In this document: in pieces, positions 24,658 through 35,199 of the stretch | How the letters are laid out: every line of letters starts with the position of its first letter | Numbering within the stretch: position 1 is the stretch's first letter | Assembly (NCBI RefSeq): GCF_002177135.1 | Contig: NZ_MWPH01000001.1 | Span: forward strand, 1-64,000 | DNA length: 64,000 nucleotides | From: Natronolimnobius baerhuensis | GTDB lineage: Archaea; Halobacteriota; Halobacteria; Halobacteriales; Natrialbaceae | Direction: 5' to 3' | The notes under the pieces: model-generated | What the model was told of the DNA's origin: nothing | What the model saw: the letters and a program-made list of their open reading frames with translations, nothing else | The model's database searches: none | Translations under genes and position numbers: made by a program

Positions 24658-26184
24658 CTACAGGAACAGGTCGTAGTAGTACGGACTGATGAAGCCTTCG
24701 ACCACTGCGGCAATCGCCAGCAGGATTCCGACGCCGATCAGCACCCAAAACGCACGCTCGAGGCGGTCGGCGAACGCGACGCGGCTGAGTCGTCCCTGAA
24801 CGGCTCGGAACCACGCAATCCCGAGCGAGATCCCGACGACCGTTGCGATGAAAATCGCCGGAATCTCGAAGATGCCGTGGGGGATCACGAACGCCAGCAA
24901 CTCGAGCGGTTCGACCTCGAGTCGAGCCATGACGCCCAGGAAGACGCCGTTGAACACCAGTGAGAAGATCGCTGGAATCGCGAGTGCAAGGCCGCCAAAA
25001 GCAGTCATCAGCGCGACCAGCCAGTTATTGCCGAAGAACTCGAGGGCTGCAGCCGGCGGCATGTGGCCCTCGAGTCGGGCCGCAATCGAGGCCTCGAGCA
25101 CGCCGACATCGGTGTAGGGATCGGCGAGTCGCCAGCCGACCCAGAACGACACGAGCGCGAGGGCGACGACGATGGCGTGGGTGCCAAGCGTTCCGCGGAC
25201 GAACGTGACCATTTCGGTCCAGCCGTGTCGCAGTCCTCCTGTGGTTCGTCGGCGGAGTGGCCGCTCGGCAGGCGCTGGCGGCGTCAGTCGGCCACGATAC
25301 TGTACGTAGAGCGAACTCTTCAGCAGGTCAAGCGCCGGCAACAACACCAGTGCACTCAGCAACGGAATAATCGCAGTGACCTCGACGAGCGCGAGCAGGC
25401 CAGTGAGTGTCGAGATTGCGAACATCGCCCCAATCGACACCACGTAGTAGACGATAGCTCCGACGGGTTGTGCTCGGATGAACCGTCCGGCGCTCGAGAC
25501 CGAGTCGAAAATCCCTGCATCGTCGACGACGACGGCGACCGGCGCGAACGCAAACAGCGCGCGGATGACTGCGAGAACGCCGACGAACACGAGCGCGACG
25601 AGCAGACCCATGAGAACGCCAACGAGCGGGTCCGCAACGGCGAGCAGTCCGACGAACAGCGTCGCGCCGATGCCGCCACCGACGAGGACGACCGCCCAGA
25701 GGAAGAACTCGAGGACGTAGAGACCGGCGATCCGAAGCCAGTACCGGCGCGCACCGGCGATTCCGGCAACGAGTCCGCGTTCGTCACGCAGCCGCCCGTA
25801 ACACGCCGACAGCTGGCTGGCGGTGACGATGCCGTACAGGATGATGGCACCGAGAACGCCCACAATGACTGTCCCGACTGCAAGCACCAGTATCGGGAAC
25901 GGAAACAGCAGTTCCAGTATCGGAAGTAACTGTTCGAACCAGGCCTCGAACGCATCGGGGTTCGCTTGGGGGTCCGGCATCGGGTCAACTGTCTCGAACT
26001 CGGCCAGTGCCGCCTCGAGTCGGCCGGTCGTCTCGAGGTAGTAGTAGCCGATGAACGCCGCGATAAATGGAATCACGCGGATAATGGCAGGAACGGCAGC
26101 ACCGAGTACGTACAGCGGTAAGATGTCGGCCGGTCGCCGCCGGAAGACAGCGCCGACAGCTCTGACAGCAGTTGCAATCGCCAT
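24658..26184 (-). CDS. SpoIIM-domain (stage II sporulation M) membrane protein
   Basis: The 508-residue protein has about a dozen transmembrane helices. The N-terminal half (residues 1-310) is a DUF-type multi-helix domain. The C-terminal half carries the SpoIIM-like segments LVFNGVFLGVMARL and VIPHGIFEIPAIFIATVVGISLG. In bacteria SpoIIM is part of the engulfment peptidoglycan machine; archaea lack this, so the role here is unknown, perhaps membrane shaping or export. It is 101 bases upstream of the aspartoacylase-like gene on the same strand. Confidence 0.82.
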   Translation of the reverse strand: MAIATAVRAVGAVFRRRPADILPLYVLGAAVPAIIRVIPFIAAFIGYYYLETTGRLEAALAEFETVDPMPDPQANPDAFEAWFEQLLPILELLFPFPILVLAVGTVIVGVLGAIILYGIVTASQLSACYGRLRDERGLVAGIAGARRYWLRIAGLYVLEFFLWAVVLVGGGIGATLFVGLLAVADPLVGVLMGLLVALVFVGVLAVIRALFAFAPVAVVVDDAGIFDSVSSAGRFIRAQPVGAIVYYVVSIGAMFAISTLTGLLALVEVTAIIPLLSALVLLPALDLLKSSLYVQYRGRLTPPAPAERPLRRRTTGGLRHGWTEMVTFVRGTLGTHAIVVALALVSFWVGWRLADPYTDVGVLEASIAARLEGHMPPAAALEFFGNNWLVALMTAFGGLALAIPAIFSLVFNGVFLGVMARLEVEPLELLAFVIPHGIFEIPAIFIATVVGISLGIAWFRAVQGRLSRVAFADRLERAFWVLIGVGILLAIAAVVEGFISPYYYDLFL

Positions 26185-32127: not shown

Positions 32128-32832
32128 ATGAGCACTGTTTCGTCTGCAACCGAGCAATCGCTTGCATCCGTCGTCGTCGTCGACTACGGCCTGGGGAACC
32201 TCCGCAGCGTGACTCGCGGCTTAGAGCGCGCTGGTGCCGATGTCGAGATCACCGACGACCCCGACGCGTTCGCCGCTGCCGATGGGATTGTCCTCCCCGG
32301 TGTCGGCGCGTTTCGCGAAGGTGTCGAGAACGCTGATCCGCTCCGCGAGGAACTCCTCGAGATTGCAGCAAGCGACACGCCGCTGTTCGGGATCTGTCTC
32401 GGGATGCAGATGCTGTTGACGACCAGTGAGGAAGGCGAAACTGATGGCGACGCCGCTGTCCAGGGCCTGGACCTGATTCCGGGAACCAACGTTCGATTCG
32501 ACGAGGGTCAGAAGGTCCCACACATGGGCTGGAACGAACTCGAGGTCGAGCGCGAGCACCCGTTGGTCGAGGGCGTCGACAACGTTGCGTCGGAGACGCA
32601 ACCAGCAGACGGATCCGTCGACGGCGAGTACGCCTACTTCGTCCACTCCTACTACGCTGTCCCGGACGACGAGAACGCAGCCGTCGCGACCACGGAGTAC
32701 GGCCTCGAGTTCCCGTCGATCATCGCCAACGAGGATGGCACCGTCTTCGGCACGCAGTTTCACCCCGAAAAGAGCGGAGAAACTGGGTTGCAGATCCTAC
32801 GGAACTTCGTTGAGATTTGCAGTCAGGAGTGA
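32128..32832 (+). CDS. hisH: Imidazole glycerol phosphate synthase glutaminase subunit HisH
   Basis: The 234-residue class I glutamine amidotransferase provides ammonia for HisF in histidine synthesis. The catalytic Cys lies in FGICLGMQML (about 92), and the His/Glu pair in TQFHPEKSG. The oxyanion-type loop (VVVDYGLGNLRSV, LPGVGAFREG) is intact. Its last 54 bases are repeated about 200 bases downstream in decayed form. The orc1 origin region follows. Confidence 0.96.
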   Translation: MSTVSSATEQSLASVVVVDYGLGNLRSVTRGLERAGADVEITDDPDAFAAADGIVLPGVGAFREGVENADPLREELLEIAASDTPLFGICLGMQMLLTTSEEGETDGDAAVQGLDLIPGTNVRFDEGQKVPHMGWNELEVEREHPLVEGVDNVASETQPADGSVDGEYAYFVHSYYAVPDDENAAVATTEYGLEFPSIIANEDGTVFGTQFHPEKSGETGLQILRNFVEICSQE

Positions 32833-32979
32833 CGGCCGCGAGCGAACAACGTGAGCGAGCGGTTTTTTGGCCTCTTGCCGAACGAAGTGAGGCAACGGTC
32901 AGCGAGAGCACGCTCTCGCCAGACAGATTTTTGCGCGAGGGTGAGTGGAACGAACCCGAGTGGAAAAAGGTGGGCGTGA
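32833..32979. other. Spacer between hisH and the duplicated hisH tail
   Basis: This 147-base segment contains GAGCGAACAACGTGAGCGAG, then a T-run GGTTTTTTGG around 32870-32877, plausibly the hisH terminator, and a second T-run near 32928. No gene is seen. It separates the two copies of the hisH 3' end. Confidence 0.5.
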
Positions 32980-33033
32980 GAGACTGGGTTACAGATCCTT
33001 CAGAACTTCGTTGTAATTTGCAGTCAGGAGTGA
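32980..33033 (+). pseudogene. Decayed duplicate of the hisH 3' end
   Basis: The 54 bases match 32779-32832 (the last 17 codons and stop of hisH) at 48 positions. In the hisH frame it reads ETGLQILQNFVVICSQE and TGA, against ETGLQILRNFVEICSQE in the intact gene. Three of the six differences are synonymous and all three synonymous changes are at third positions. Nothing upstream of 32980 matches hisH, so this is a fragment only. Confidence 0.8.
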
Positions 33034-33069
33034 CCCTGCGGTCGTATTTCTGTGTGCTGCCGTGGAGAC

Positions 33070-33090
33070 ACACCCCGGAGTGCCGCTGTA
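33070..33090 (-). repeat. ORB-type box 1 (inverted)
   Basis: Reverse complement of TACAGCGG + CACTC + CGGGGTGT. It is the only box on the minus strand and lies on the opposite side of the AT-rich region from the others. Confidence 0.8.
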
Positions 33091-33267
33091 TAGTGGTGCG
33101 GTGGGCGTGCAGTTTTCGAAGTGACTCGGACTCGAGTATCGCCAACTGTGAGTCGTTTGTCTACGAGCGGGCCGGTACTCTCTGGAAACAGCATTGTTCG
33201 ATAGCGGTGTGGTTCTCCGAACTCGTCTCAACTTTCCAAGTTCACTGTTTGACCATCCTTGTCCCAA

Positions 33268-33345
33268 TACCAGAATAGATAAATACAATATCTTTGTAAT
33301 AGTCCAGTAAGTCAATCGAACGATATCTGTTCGATTCGGATCGAA
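33268..33345. other. AT-rich candidate DNA-unwinding element
   Basis: This stretch is clearly richer in A+T than its surroundings (for example ACCAGAATAGATAAATACAA at 33269-33288 and ATCTTTGTAAT at 33290-33300). It lies between the inverted box at 33070-33090 and the direct boxes starting at 33525. Position and composition fit a duplex-unwinding element of an archaeal origin; not tested. Confidence 0.6.
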
Positions 33346-33524
33346 CACCACCCGAGTTCGAGGTAAATTCACCCTTCTCGAGGCCTCATTCCCGTGACTT
33401 TGGTATCAATACCGGCTCTCCTCTGGCGCTGAGAATTGTGACTGATTGGTATCTCGGCAGTGCAGTGACTCGAGCAATTCACCAGTCCACCCACCATTTC
33501 GACTCGACCACTCACGGATATCGT

Positions 33525-33545
33525 TACAGCGGCACCGCGGGGTGT
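33525..33545 (+). repeat. ORB-type box 2
   Basis: TACAGCGG core with a GCGGGGTGT end. It starts 32 bp before box 3. Confidence 0.8.
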
Positions 33546-33556
33546 CTGTCTCCCCA

Positions 33557-33577
33557 TACAGCGGCACTCCGGGGTGA
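33557..33577 (+). repeat. ORB-type box 3
   Basis: TACAGCGG core, CACTCC middle and GGGGTGA end. It starts 32 bp after box 2 and 64 bp before box 4. Confidence 0.8.
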
Positions 33578-33620
33578 GAATCCCCACCAATGGGTCTCTT
33601 GACACGAGTTCGCGTTCGAA

Positions 33621-33641
33621 TACAGCGGAACCGTGGCTGGC
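33621..33641 (+). repeat. ORB-type box 4 (degenerate G-run)
   Basis: TACAGCGG core intact, but the usual GGGG is replaced by GGCTGG. It is the weakest match together with box 9. Confidence 0.65.
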
Positions 33642-33699
33642 TGACGTCAGCAGGTCGACTCAAAGAGTGTCTCGGACTGGCTGCACTTCCGGGAATCGA

Positions 33700-33720
33700 T
33701 ACAGCGGCACTCGGGGGTCC
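33700..33720 (+). repeat. ORB-type box 5
   Basis: TACAGCGG core with CACTCGGGGG. It starts 79 bp after box 4 and 31 bp before box 6. Confidence 0.8.
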
Positions 33721-33730
33721 GGCGTATGTA

Positions 33731-33751
33731 TACAGCGGCAATCAGGGGTAC
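33731..33751 (+). repeat. ORB-type box 6
   Basis: TACAGCGG core with CAATCAGGGG, ending GTAC. It pairs with box 5 at 31 bp spacing. Confidence 0.8.
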
Positions 33752-33843
33752 CCGGTCACGTCTCTGTGTCGGCGACTAGGGACTCACATCGCGTGGACCT
33801 CGAGTAATGCACTCGAGATACCCACCGAAATCGTCCCGGTCTA

Positions 33844-33864
33844 TACAGCGGAACCACGGGGTGT
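33844..33864 (+). repeat. ORB-type box 7
   Basis: TACAGCGG core with AACCACGGGGTGT, one of the three fullest matches. It starts 32 bp before box 8. Confidence 0.85.
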
Positions 33865-33875
33865 CTTGGCCCTTA

Positions 33876-33896
33876 TACAGCGGAACCGAGGGGTGT
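33876..33896 (+). repeat. ORB-type box 8
   Basis: TACAGCGG core with AACCGAGGGGTGT. It pairs with box 7 at 32 bp spacing. Confidence 0.85.
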
Positions 33897-33937
33897 ACAA
33901 TCGGATTCTCGAGACATCACGCGGGGAGACCCATCCT

Positions 33938-33958
33938 ATACAGCGGAAACGCGGTTCC
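33938..33958 (+). repeat. ORB-type box 9 (degenerate)
   Basis: TACAGCGG core with AAACGCGG, but the G-run is GGTT. It lies just before the orc1 promoter and 62 bp after box 8. Confidence 0.7.
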
Positions 33959-33960
33959 GA

Positions 33961-33970
33961 AGGTTTAAGA
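33961..33970 (+). promoter_or_regulatory. orc1 TATA-like box
   Basis: GGTTTAAGAT lies about 30 bases upstream of the orc1 ATG at 34000 and directly after box 9. Binding of Orc1 to box 9 would lie over the promoter, so autoregulation is possible. Confidence 0.6.
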
Positions 33971-33999
33971 TAGGGCCGAATCGTATCCTCGAGCAGTGA

Positions 34000-35199
34000 A
34001 TGTCGGATTCGATGGACTATTTCGGAACGGAGAACGAAATCTTCCGGAACAAGGAGCTGCTGCAGGTCTCACACCTCCCCGACGGTGATCGAATCATCGG
34101 TCGTGAGGACGAACTAACGAATCTCGCGAACGCGATCAAGCCCGCGACGCGTGGGAATACGCCAAACAACGTCCTCGTCTACGGAAAGACGGGCACTGGC
34201 AAATCGCTGTGCTCGAAGTTTATCACGAATCAGGCAATCGACCGCGCCAAGCAAAATGATATCTCGATTGGCGTCGCCTACGTCGACTGTCTGCAGGAAT
34301 CAACCGAAACGCAGGCCGTCCAGTCGGCTGGCCATCGGCTCAACGACAAAGCCGAGACGGACATTTCGATCCCTCACTCGGGGCTGAGCACAGCCGAGTA
34401 CTACCGTCGGCTCTGGCAGATCATCGACACGCGCTACGACGTCGCCTTGATCATCCTCGACGAAGTCGACAAGATCGAAGACGACGATATCCTGATGCAA
34501 CTCTCGAGAGCCGTCGAATCCGGGAAACTCACCTCGAGTACGGTTGGCGTCATCGGCATTTCGAACAAGGTCCGGTACAAGGATTCACTCGACGAACGCA
34601 TCAAGTCGAGTCTGTGTGAACGCGAGTACGTCTTCTCGCCCTACGATGCGACCCAGATCCGCGAGATTCTCCGCTCGCGCTCCGACGCATTCCACGAGGG
34701 CGTCCTCGAGGACGGCGTCGTTCCCCGCGTCGCCGCCCTCGCGGCCCGCGAACACGGCGACGCGCGCAAGGCAATCGACATTCTCCGCTTTGCGGGCGAG
34801 ATCGCCGAGGAGAACGACCGCGAGCGCGTGACCGAGTCGTGCGTCGATCAGGCCCACGAACGCGAGGAGACGAGCCGGCTGGCCGAACTCATCTCCAAGA
34901 GTCCGAGTCACGCGAAACTCGTCCTCGAGGCCATGGCGTTGCTCACCCAGCAGAAAGAGGGGACTGACGTGCCGGTGCGGACGAACGAGGCCTACGAACT
35001 CTACAAGCGCCTCTGTGATCGCGATCAGTCTGACCACCTGAAGCTCCGTCGGGTTCGGGATATCCTCTCGGAACTCGAGTTTCTCTCGATCATCGAACAG
35101 GAGCGCAAGTGGGCGGGGAAGGGAAAGGGTAACTACATGGAGAATCGGCTGATTGACGATCCCGAAGTGATTATCGCCGCGTGTAACGAGTCGGACTGA
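34000..35199 (+). CDS. orc1: Orc1/Cdc6 family replication initiator
   Basis: The 399-residue protein starts MSDSMDYFGTENEIF. The AAA+ core has Walker A YGKTGTGKSLCSKF, Walker B ALIILDEVDKIEDD, sensor 1 VGVIGISNKVRYKDSL and sensor 2 in the AREHGDARKAIDILRFAGEIA helix. A C-terminal winged helix (RLCDRDQSDHLKLRRVRDILSELEFLSII) binds origin DNA. The nine TACAGCGG boxes just upstream are its likely binding sites. Whether this is the main origin of the chromosome or a secondary one cannot be seen from this window. Confidence 0.96.
   Translation: MSDSMDYFGTENEIFRNKELLQVSHLPDGDRIIGREDELTNLANAIKPATRGNTPNNVLVYGKTGTGKSLCSKFITNQAIDRAKQNDISIGVAYVDCLQESTETQAVQSAGHRLNDKAETDISIPHSGLSTAEYYRRLWQIIDTRYDVALIILDEVDKIEDDDILMQLSRAVESGKLTSSTVGVIGISNKVRYKDSLDERIKSSLCEREYVFSPYDATQIREILRSRSDAFHEGVLEDGVVPRVAALAAREHGDARKAIDILRFAGEIAEENDRERVTESCVDQAHEREETSRLAELISKSPSHAKLVLEAMALLTQQKEGTDVPVRTNEAYELYKRLCDRDQSDHLKLRRVRDILSELEFLSIIEQERKWAGKGKGNYMENRLIDDPEVIIAACNESD

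Follow-up and report, generated by a model that had tools for sequence, protein, structure and literature searches.

Archaeal replication origins are usually characterized by their box content, not by the spacing of their boxes.

In the haloarchaeal origins that adjoin orc/cdc6 genes, an intergenic region upstream of orc1/cdc6 has an AT-rich stretch and inverted ORBs with a G-string, and boxes are paired with a cognate initiator (Wu et al. 2012, PMC3528665). The words "spacing" and "helical" are absent from the main text of that paper. In Haloarcula hispanica oriC1-cdc6A, an AT-rich stretch is bracketed by two inverted ORBs whose G-strings point outward. These two ORBs suffice for autonomous replication, their G-strings are essential, and a G-rich inverted repeat enhances the origin (PMC3936714). 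The oriC2-cdc6E/oriC2D region of the same species has many ORBs of one initiator, including 11 in oriC2D downstream of cdc6E, and titration has been proposed for it (PMC3936714). In bacteria, the DnaA-box arrays of oriC are sensitive to spacing changes of part of a turn but not of a whole turn (Woelker and Messer 1993, as cited in PMC4285127), and initiator boxes also occur in the dnaA promoter.

Here, we describe a locus of this general kind in a 64-kb stretch of DNA (the window), positions 1 to 64,000 of the forward strand of Natronolimnobius baerhuensis contig NZ_MWPH01000001.1 (GCF_002177135.1). It resembles the origins of Wu et al. in its intergenic position, AT-rich stretch, G-string boxes, and adjoining initiator gene. 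However, only the window family shows conserved phased triads, two G-less half-boxes, and 5 to 20 direct boxes against what is usually one inverted box. As in H. hispanica oriC1, two boxes of opposite orientation with outward G-strings surround the AT-rich stretch, but oriC1 needs only two ORBs, and its classical ORB is absent from the window array and found on another contig (C3). Like oriC2D, the window locus has many boxes, although all of them are upstream of the orc gene and phased. Unlike an oriC2D-type titration region, it has no ORB cluster downstream of the gene, a direction in which the window has no TACAGCGG match. The DnaA arrays have unrelated box sequences and another initiator; that likeness is a functional analogy only.

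The box array and the probable oriC1 of the genome

A preliminary description had claimed eight direct boxes and one inverted box sharing TACAGCGG, and a scan of the window found all of them (Table 1). Seven of the direct starts had been placed correctly, but the last one had been given as 33938. It is 33939, which makes the last spacing 63 bp and not 62. The minus-strand copy of TACAGCGG, at 33083-33090, belongs to the inverted box. The window contains 10 matches to TACAGCGG versus 1.07 expected, and none of 100 shuffles reached ten; the tenth match, at 26111, stands isolated from the array. The box pattern in the window is TACAGCGGMAnnnnGGGGTG. When the whole genome was searched for the 20-mer box ATACAGCGGMAMYNNGGGGT with no more than one mismatch, nine places were found, seven of them inside the array. 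One of the two outside matches was examined (C1:370842), and it lies inside a coding ORF. With three mismatches allowed, box-like sites across the genome were only mildly above a reversed-pattern control.

Table 1. Parts of the window locus; direct boxes start at the plus-strand TACAGCGG matches
Feature	Position	Strand	Remark
Inverted full box I, ATACAGCGGCACTCCGGGGTGTGTCTC	33065..33091	-	G-string points away from AT-rich stretch
AT-rich stretch, candidate duplex-unwinding element	33266..33325 (edges approximate)		60-bp GC minimum 0.28
D1, full direct box, AT-rich-stretch side	33525..33545	+	Full in 40/40 orthologous origins, GGGGTGTGTG consensus
D2, full direct box	33557..33577	+	D1 +32 bp
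D3, half-box without G-string	33621..33636	+	D2 +64 bp
M1, full middle box	33700..33720	+	TACAGCGG scan, middle-box analysis
M2, full middle box	33731..33751	+	M1 +31 bp
P1, full direct box, promoter side	33844..33864	+	Ortholog comparison
P2, full direct box	33876..33896	+	P1 +32 bp
P3, half-box without G-string	33939..33954	+	P2 +63 bp; start 61 bp before orc ATG
Promoter-like BRE/TATA TTCCGAAGGTTTAAG of orc gene	33955..33969	+	Abuts P3; putative promoter
orc1/cdc6 gene, 399 aa (P0001), candidate cognate initiator	34000..35199	+	Pfam/NCBIfam

The layout that had been described, with boxes beside an Orc1/Cdc6 gene and with an AT-rich stretch between the inverted box and the direct ones as in haloarchaeal ORB-type origins, was borne out. 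The lowest-GC 60-bp segment lies between I and D1, which both bear GGGGTGTG outward. The gene directly after the boxes encodes an Orc protein that scored 420.7 bits against TIGR02928 (cutoff, 181.3) and has the Pfam domains Cdc6_lid and Cdc6_C. Its ATG is about 30 bp downstream of the BRE/TATA element, which suggests a leaderless transcript. The neighbors in the window are a GATase (HisH-like) gene and a Trm1 gene. Part of the 3' end of the hisH-like gene (32802-32833) is duplicated 201 bp downstream, at 33003-33034, directly before the inverted box (32 nt, 94% identical).

Reading the window locus as oriC1 was ruled out by box type, synteny, and the locus on C3. The classical ORB (TTCCA..CGAAACGAAGGGG) is absent from the window array, and a pair of classical ORBs is on C3 (L219:7272 and 7585) beside the gene for a 576-aa Orc. 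The synteny of oriC1 has been described as genes for a GTP-binding protein, a signal peptidase, and a polymerase (PMC4010727). This was not found at the window locus. The C3 neighbors gave DNA_pol_E_B and GTPase hits and include an ORF that resembles a signal peptidase but gave no Pfam hit. Because C3 holds both classical ORBs and oriC1 neighbors, the window locus is not oriC1 but a separate replicator candidate, and the C3 locus is the probable oriC1. The genome has about a dozen Orc-like matches, and the window Orc is approximately 43% identical to the 576-aa protein over the best segment.

Conserved spacing in orthologous origins

Five of the seven direct-box spacings had been reported as close to one or two times 31 to 32 bp. 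They are indeed within 1 to 1.5 bp of 31.5 or 63 bp (P ~1e-5 for eight boxes placed randomly over the same span, with the period chosen post hoc). However, a single phase for all eight direct boxes, at either 10.5 bp (P = 0.68) or 31.5 bp (P = 0.30), was not found. The preliminary description had named a comparison of orthologous spacings as the decisive computation. We compared 40 nonidentical orthologous origins, including the window and leaving out one rearranged copy (L053). These come from related genomes, and the counts are not independent events.

The common order is I, the AT-rich stretch, D1, D2, D3, 0 to 14 middle boxes, P1, P2, and P3. D1 to D2 was 32 to 34 bp and P1 to P2 was 32 to 33 bp in 40/40 origins, and P2 to P3 was 63 to 65 bp. 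D3 was exact in 29 origins, degenerate at +63 in 10, and lost in one; D2 to D3 was 63 to 64 bp for 29/29 exact copies. P3 always starts 59 to 62 bp before the orc ATG and has a TTTAAG-like element beside it in 40/40 origins. In contrast to these fixed intervals, I to D1 ranged over 285 to 832 bp, and D1 to P1 varied freely (78 to 714 bp). The spacers within the triads have diverged. The P2-P3 spacer is 42 to 44 nt in 40/40 origins with a median pairwise identity of 36%, and the corresponding values are 11 to 12 nt and 36% for P1-P2 and 42 to 43 nt and 43% for D2-D3. Therefore, the length of the spacers is held and not their sequence.

A GGGG or G-string was present in D1 (40/40), D2 (39/40), and the inverted boxes (41/42), but it was rare in D3 (3/29) and absent from P3 (0/40). 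Therefore, D3 and P3 are G-less half-boxes, which make up two of the eight direct boxes in the window. These half-boxes, the locking of the promoter triad to the orc start codon, and the non-oriC1 identity had not been part of the preliminary description. It had pointed out the one-against-many asymmetry, and this is conserved: exactly one inverted box is present in 36/40 origins, with two or three in the other four, versus 5 to 20 direct boxes. I and D1 carry a common extended G-string, GGGGTGTGTSTC, facing outward around the AT-rich stretch. There is also a strand bias, with a G excess inside I (35/40) and a C excess inside D1 (36/40), that resembles the G-rich inverted repeat of H. hispanica oriC1 (PMC3936714).

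Middle boxes also have a preferred spacing. Spacings of 30 to 33 bp made up 22/107 of the middle-box spacings versus 6.4 expected (P<2e-4; 31 distinct layouts and 5,000 simulations, with a simulated maximum of 18). Middle spacings outside 28 to 33 bp showed no phase (R = 0.01). Two origins are exceptional. In Natrarchaeobius chitinivorans (L050), the array preceding the Orc gene at 1851 has expanded to 20 direct boxes, and 14 middle boxes are mostly 33 to 36 bp apart. These are nonintegral turns, off the 10.5-bp phase and at odds with a 31.5-bp step, but the triads nonetheless keep 32/63 and 33/64. In L044, D3 and the middle boxes have been lost. Given these exceptions, helical phase holds as a rule within triads and pairs but not for the array as a whole. 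The phasing that had been proposed therefore stands locally, in D1-D2-D3, P1-P2-P3, and middle pairs, with 32/63 bp conserved among orthologs, and fails globally. Integral turns independent of spacer sequence, as in a phased array, occur within triads and pairs; the data do not support one register running through the entire array. Another origin of the genome has five direct boxes with spacings of 109, 83, 40, and 76, so the rule is specific to the window-locus family.

A BRE/TATA-like element, TATAGAAA/GAAAnnCTTTT, precedes D3 in 19/40 origins (including L032-L036 and L039-L043). It may be a second promoter that is directed into the array. No such element was seen between D2 and D3 in the window.

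Distribution and distant relatives

An ortholog of the window Orc locus was found in 59 of the 121 Natrialbaceae genomes searched. About half of the family is without it, and so the locus is dispensable. Thirty loci in named genomes have Orc orthologs with 80 to 96% identity, and hisH or trm1 neighbors are kept at most of them. Triads were also retained in orthologs from other gene contexts, including plasmid copies.

More distant orthologs (approximately 58 to 65% identity) occur in Haladaptataceae, two other families, and a second Natrialbaceae plasmid type. Their box spacings are 21 to 22, 42 to 44, 63 to 64, 67, 75 to 76, 84, and 227 bp. The 10.5-bp phase had an R of 0.70, or 0.53 (P = 0.002) without the abutting 21- to 22-bp repeats, and the best period was near 10.7; the null was uniform spacings and the genomes are related, which makes these P values guides. 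On a Haladaptatus halobius plasmid (L162), four boxes follow each other at exact 21-bp steps, iteron-like, from -216 to -153 of the Orc start. A Haloarcula-type subfamily mostly has one to four inverted boxes and two to four direct boxes. Its spacings (44+104 or 36+100 bp) are at best weakly phased, and a promoter-proximal G-less box, at about -54 to -57, is mostly kept. Related replicators are on megaplasmids, including one of 311 kb in Halorussus limi with a single Orc at E<1e-40. These megaplasmid relatives, one of which has no second detectable Orc, make it likely that members of the family function as replicators.

Possible mechanism and alternative explanations

From the anatomy, spacing conservation, half-box pattern, and family distribution that these comparisons demonstrated, we propose that the locus is a Natrialbaceae chromosomal Orc1/Cdc6 replicator-initiator unit, distinct from oriC1, with phased triads that assemble the initiator and a promoter half-box that autoregulates it. 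We would put the probability of this reading at about 0.68. It leads us to infer Orc binding, cooperativity, melting, autoregulation, and titration, as follows. The adjacent Orc would bind I and D1, the two full boxes flanking the AT-rich stretch with their G-strings outward, and would help to melt this stretch and load MCM. I and D1 would be the initiation core, to which the direct triads would add phased cooperative binding. Orc molecules on partner boxes, which are three helical turns apart (31 to 33 bp), would sit on the same DNA face, as would a molecule on the weaker G-less box another six turns along (63 to 65 bp), and could thereby bind cooperatively. The fixed box distances suggest such in-register assembly. 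The constant position of the promoter-side triad relative to the orc TATA box suggests that Orc regulates its own gene. The middle boxes vary freely, which suggests titration of Orc, as proposed for oriC2D.

The locus looks like a genuine replicator of known type with a strongly conserved spacing rule, and we found no report of helical spacing of archaeal ORBs in the literature searched, which took in few subscription journals. A spacing rule that holds over approximately 40 genomes with diverged spacers makes cooperative in-phase Orc assembly directly testable, and the fixed promoter half-box gives a testable prediction of initiator autoregulation. A broader idea, which we offer tentatively and at less than even odds, is that the family carries an assembly code. 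Boxes would be at integral turns (two, three, four, and six). The full boxes would serve as anchors, the G-less half-boxes would be cooperative sites of low affinity, and one of these half-boxes would couple assembly to the initiator's own promoter. If true, archaea would have a counterpart to ordered DnaA assembly, and archaeal Orc would form a higher-order in-register complex rather than bind box by box.

The 32- and 63-bp spacings might instead reflect protein size, either Orc packing or neighbor contact, with 32 bp being the shortest distance between two footprints and 63 bp being two steps from which the middle site was lost. With boxes of approximately 21 bp, a gap of 11 nt remains at 32 bp; L050 accommodates 34 to 36 bp, and middle spacings above 33 bp are unphased. 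However, relatives have boxes 21 to 22 and 42 to 44 bp apart, so 32 bp is not a minimum, and integral turns recur. Also, spacings of 24 to 30 and 34 to 41 bp are rare in the 40 origins outside L050. We consider this explanation rather unlikely.

About equally doubtful is that the direct array is mainly regulatory, for orc autoregulation and Orc titration. In that case, I, D1, and the AT-rich stretch would be enough for replication, or it would start at another place. This reading fits the promoter-side triad, fixed to the ATG and TATA box in 40/40 origins but at variable distances from the AT-rich stretch, and the recurrence of the promoter-proximal G-less box in most Haloarcula-type orthologs. 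In H. hispanica, an ORB-rich region lowers the activity of oriC2, and oriC1 works with two ORBs (PMC3936714). Even so, conservation is just as strong in the distal triad, next to the AT-rich stretch, and control of the promoter alone does not account for this.

Still less probable is a dormant origin whose initiator gene is the main reason for its retention. In Haloferax mediterranei (PMC4595724) and H. hispanica (PMC4441112), orc-linked origins that are dormant or deficient have been reported. The absence of the locus from about half of the Natrialbaceae would agree with dormancy, as would GC skew and gene-strand-corrected third-position skew, which gave no consistent replication signal around two orthologous origins. 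However, near-invariant spacing over orthologs with 80 to 96% identity indicates continuing selection on the array, and the locus has persisted in various gene contexts and also on plasmids. Finally, slippage can create direct repeats, and the Haladaptatus 21-bp repeats abut exactly, but a functionless by-product of tandem duplication is very improbable, given that box cores are near-invariant among orthologous origins, that spacers have diverged yet are fixed in length, and that middle-pair spacers are only 0.29 to 0.34 identical to triad spacers, which argues against recent copying.

Other loci were also considered. A J7 study described an oriC4 with 8 ORBs, and its plasmid pFJ2 gave no transformants (PMC5350488). 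At first, oriC4 resembled an ortholog of the window locus, but the pFJ2 forward primer best matches the C3 oriC1-type locus (4 mismatches). A search with the pFJ3 primer returned no useful match. With these primer results, we draw no ARS inference from the J7 plasmids. A locus at 1.259 Mb of contig C1 (L002, G000:C1:1259219-1260367) was rejected as oriC1 because its ORBs and neighbors do not fit. It encodes a 490-aa Orc (44% identical) and has its own ORB-like set, TTACAAACGCGAGGGGGGTGTG, which makes it one more candidate for an origin on the same contig. In two ortholog copies, one in Natrinema versiforme JCM 10478 (L053) and one at G217:C63:120674-121828, the start region is disturbed or the reading frame contains a TAG; these copies are possibly decaying replicators.
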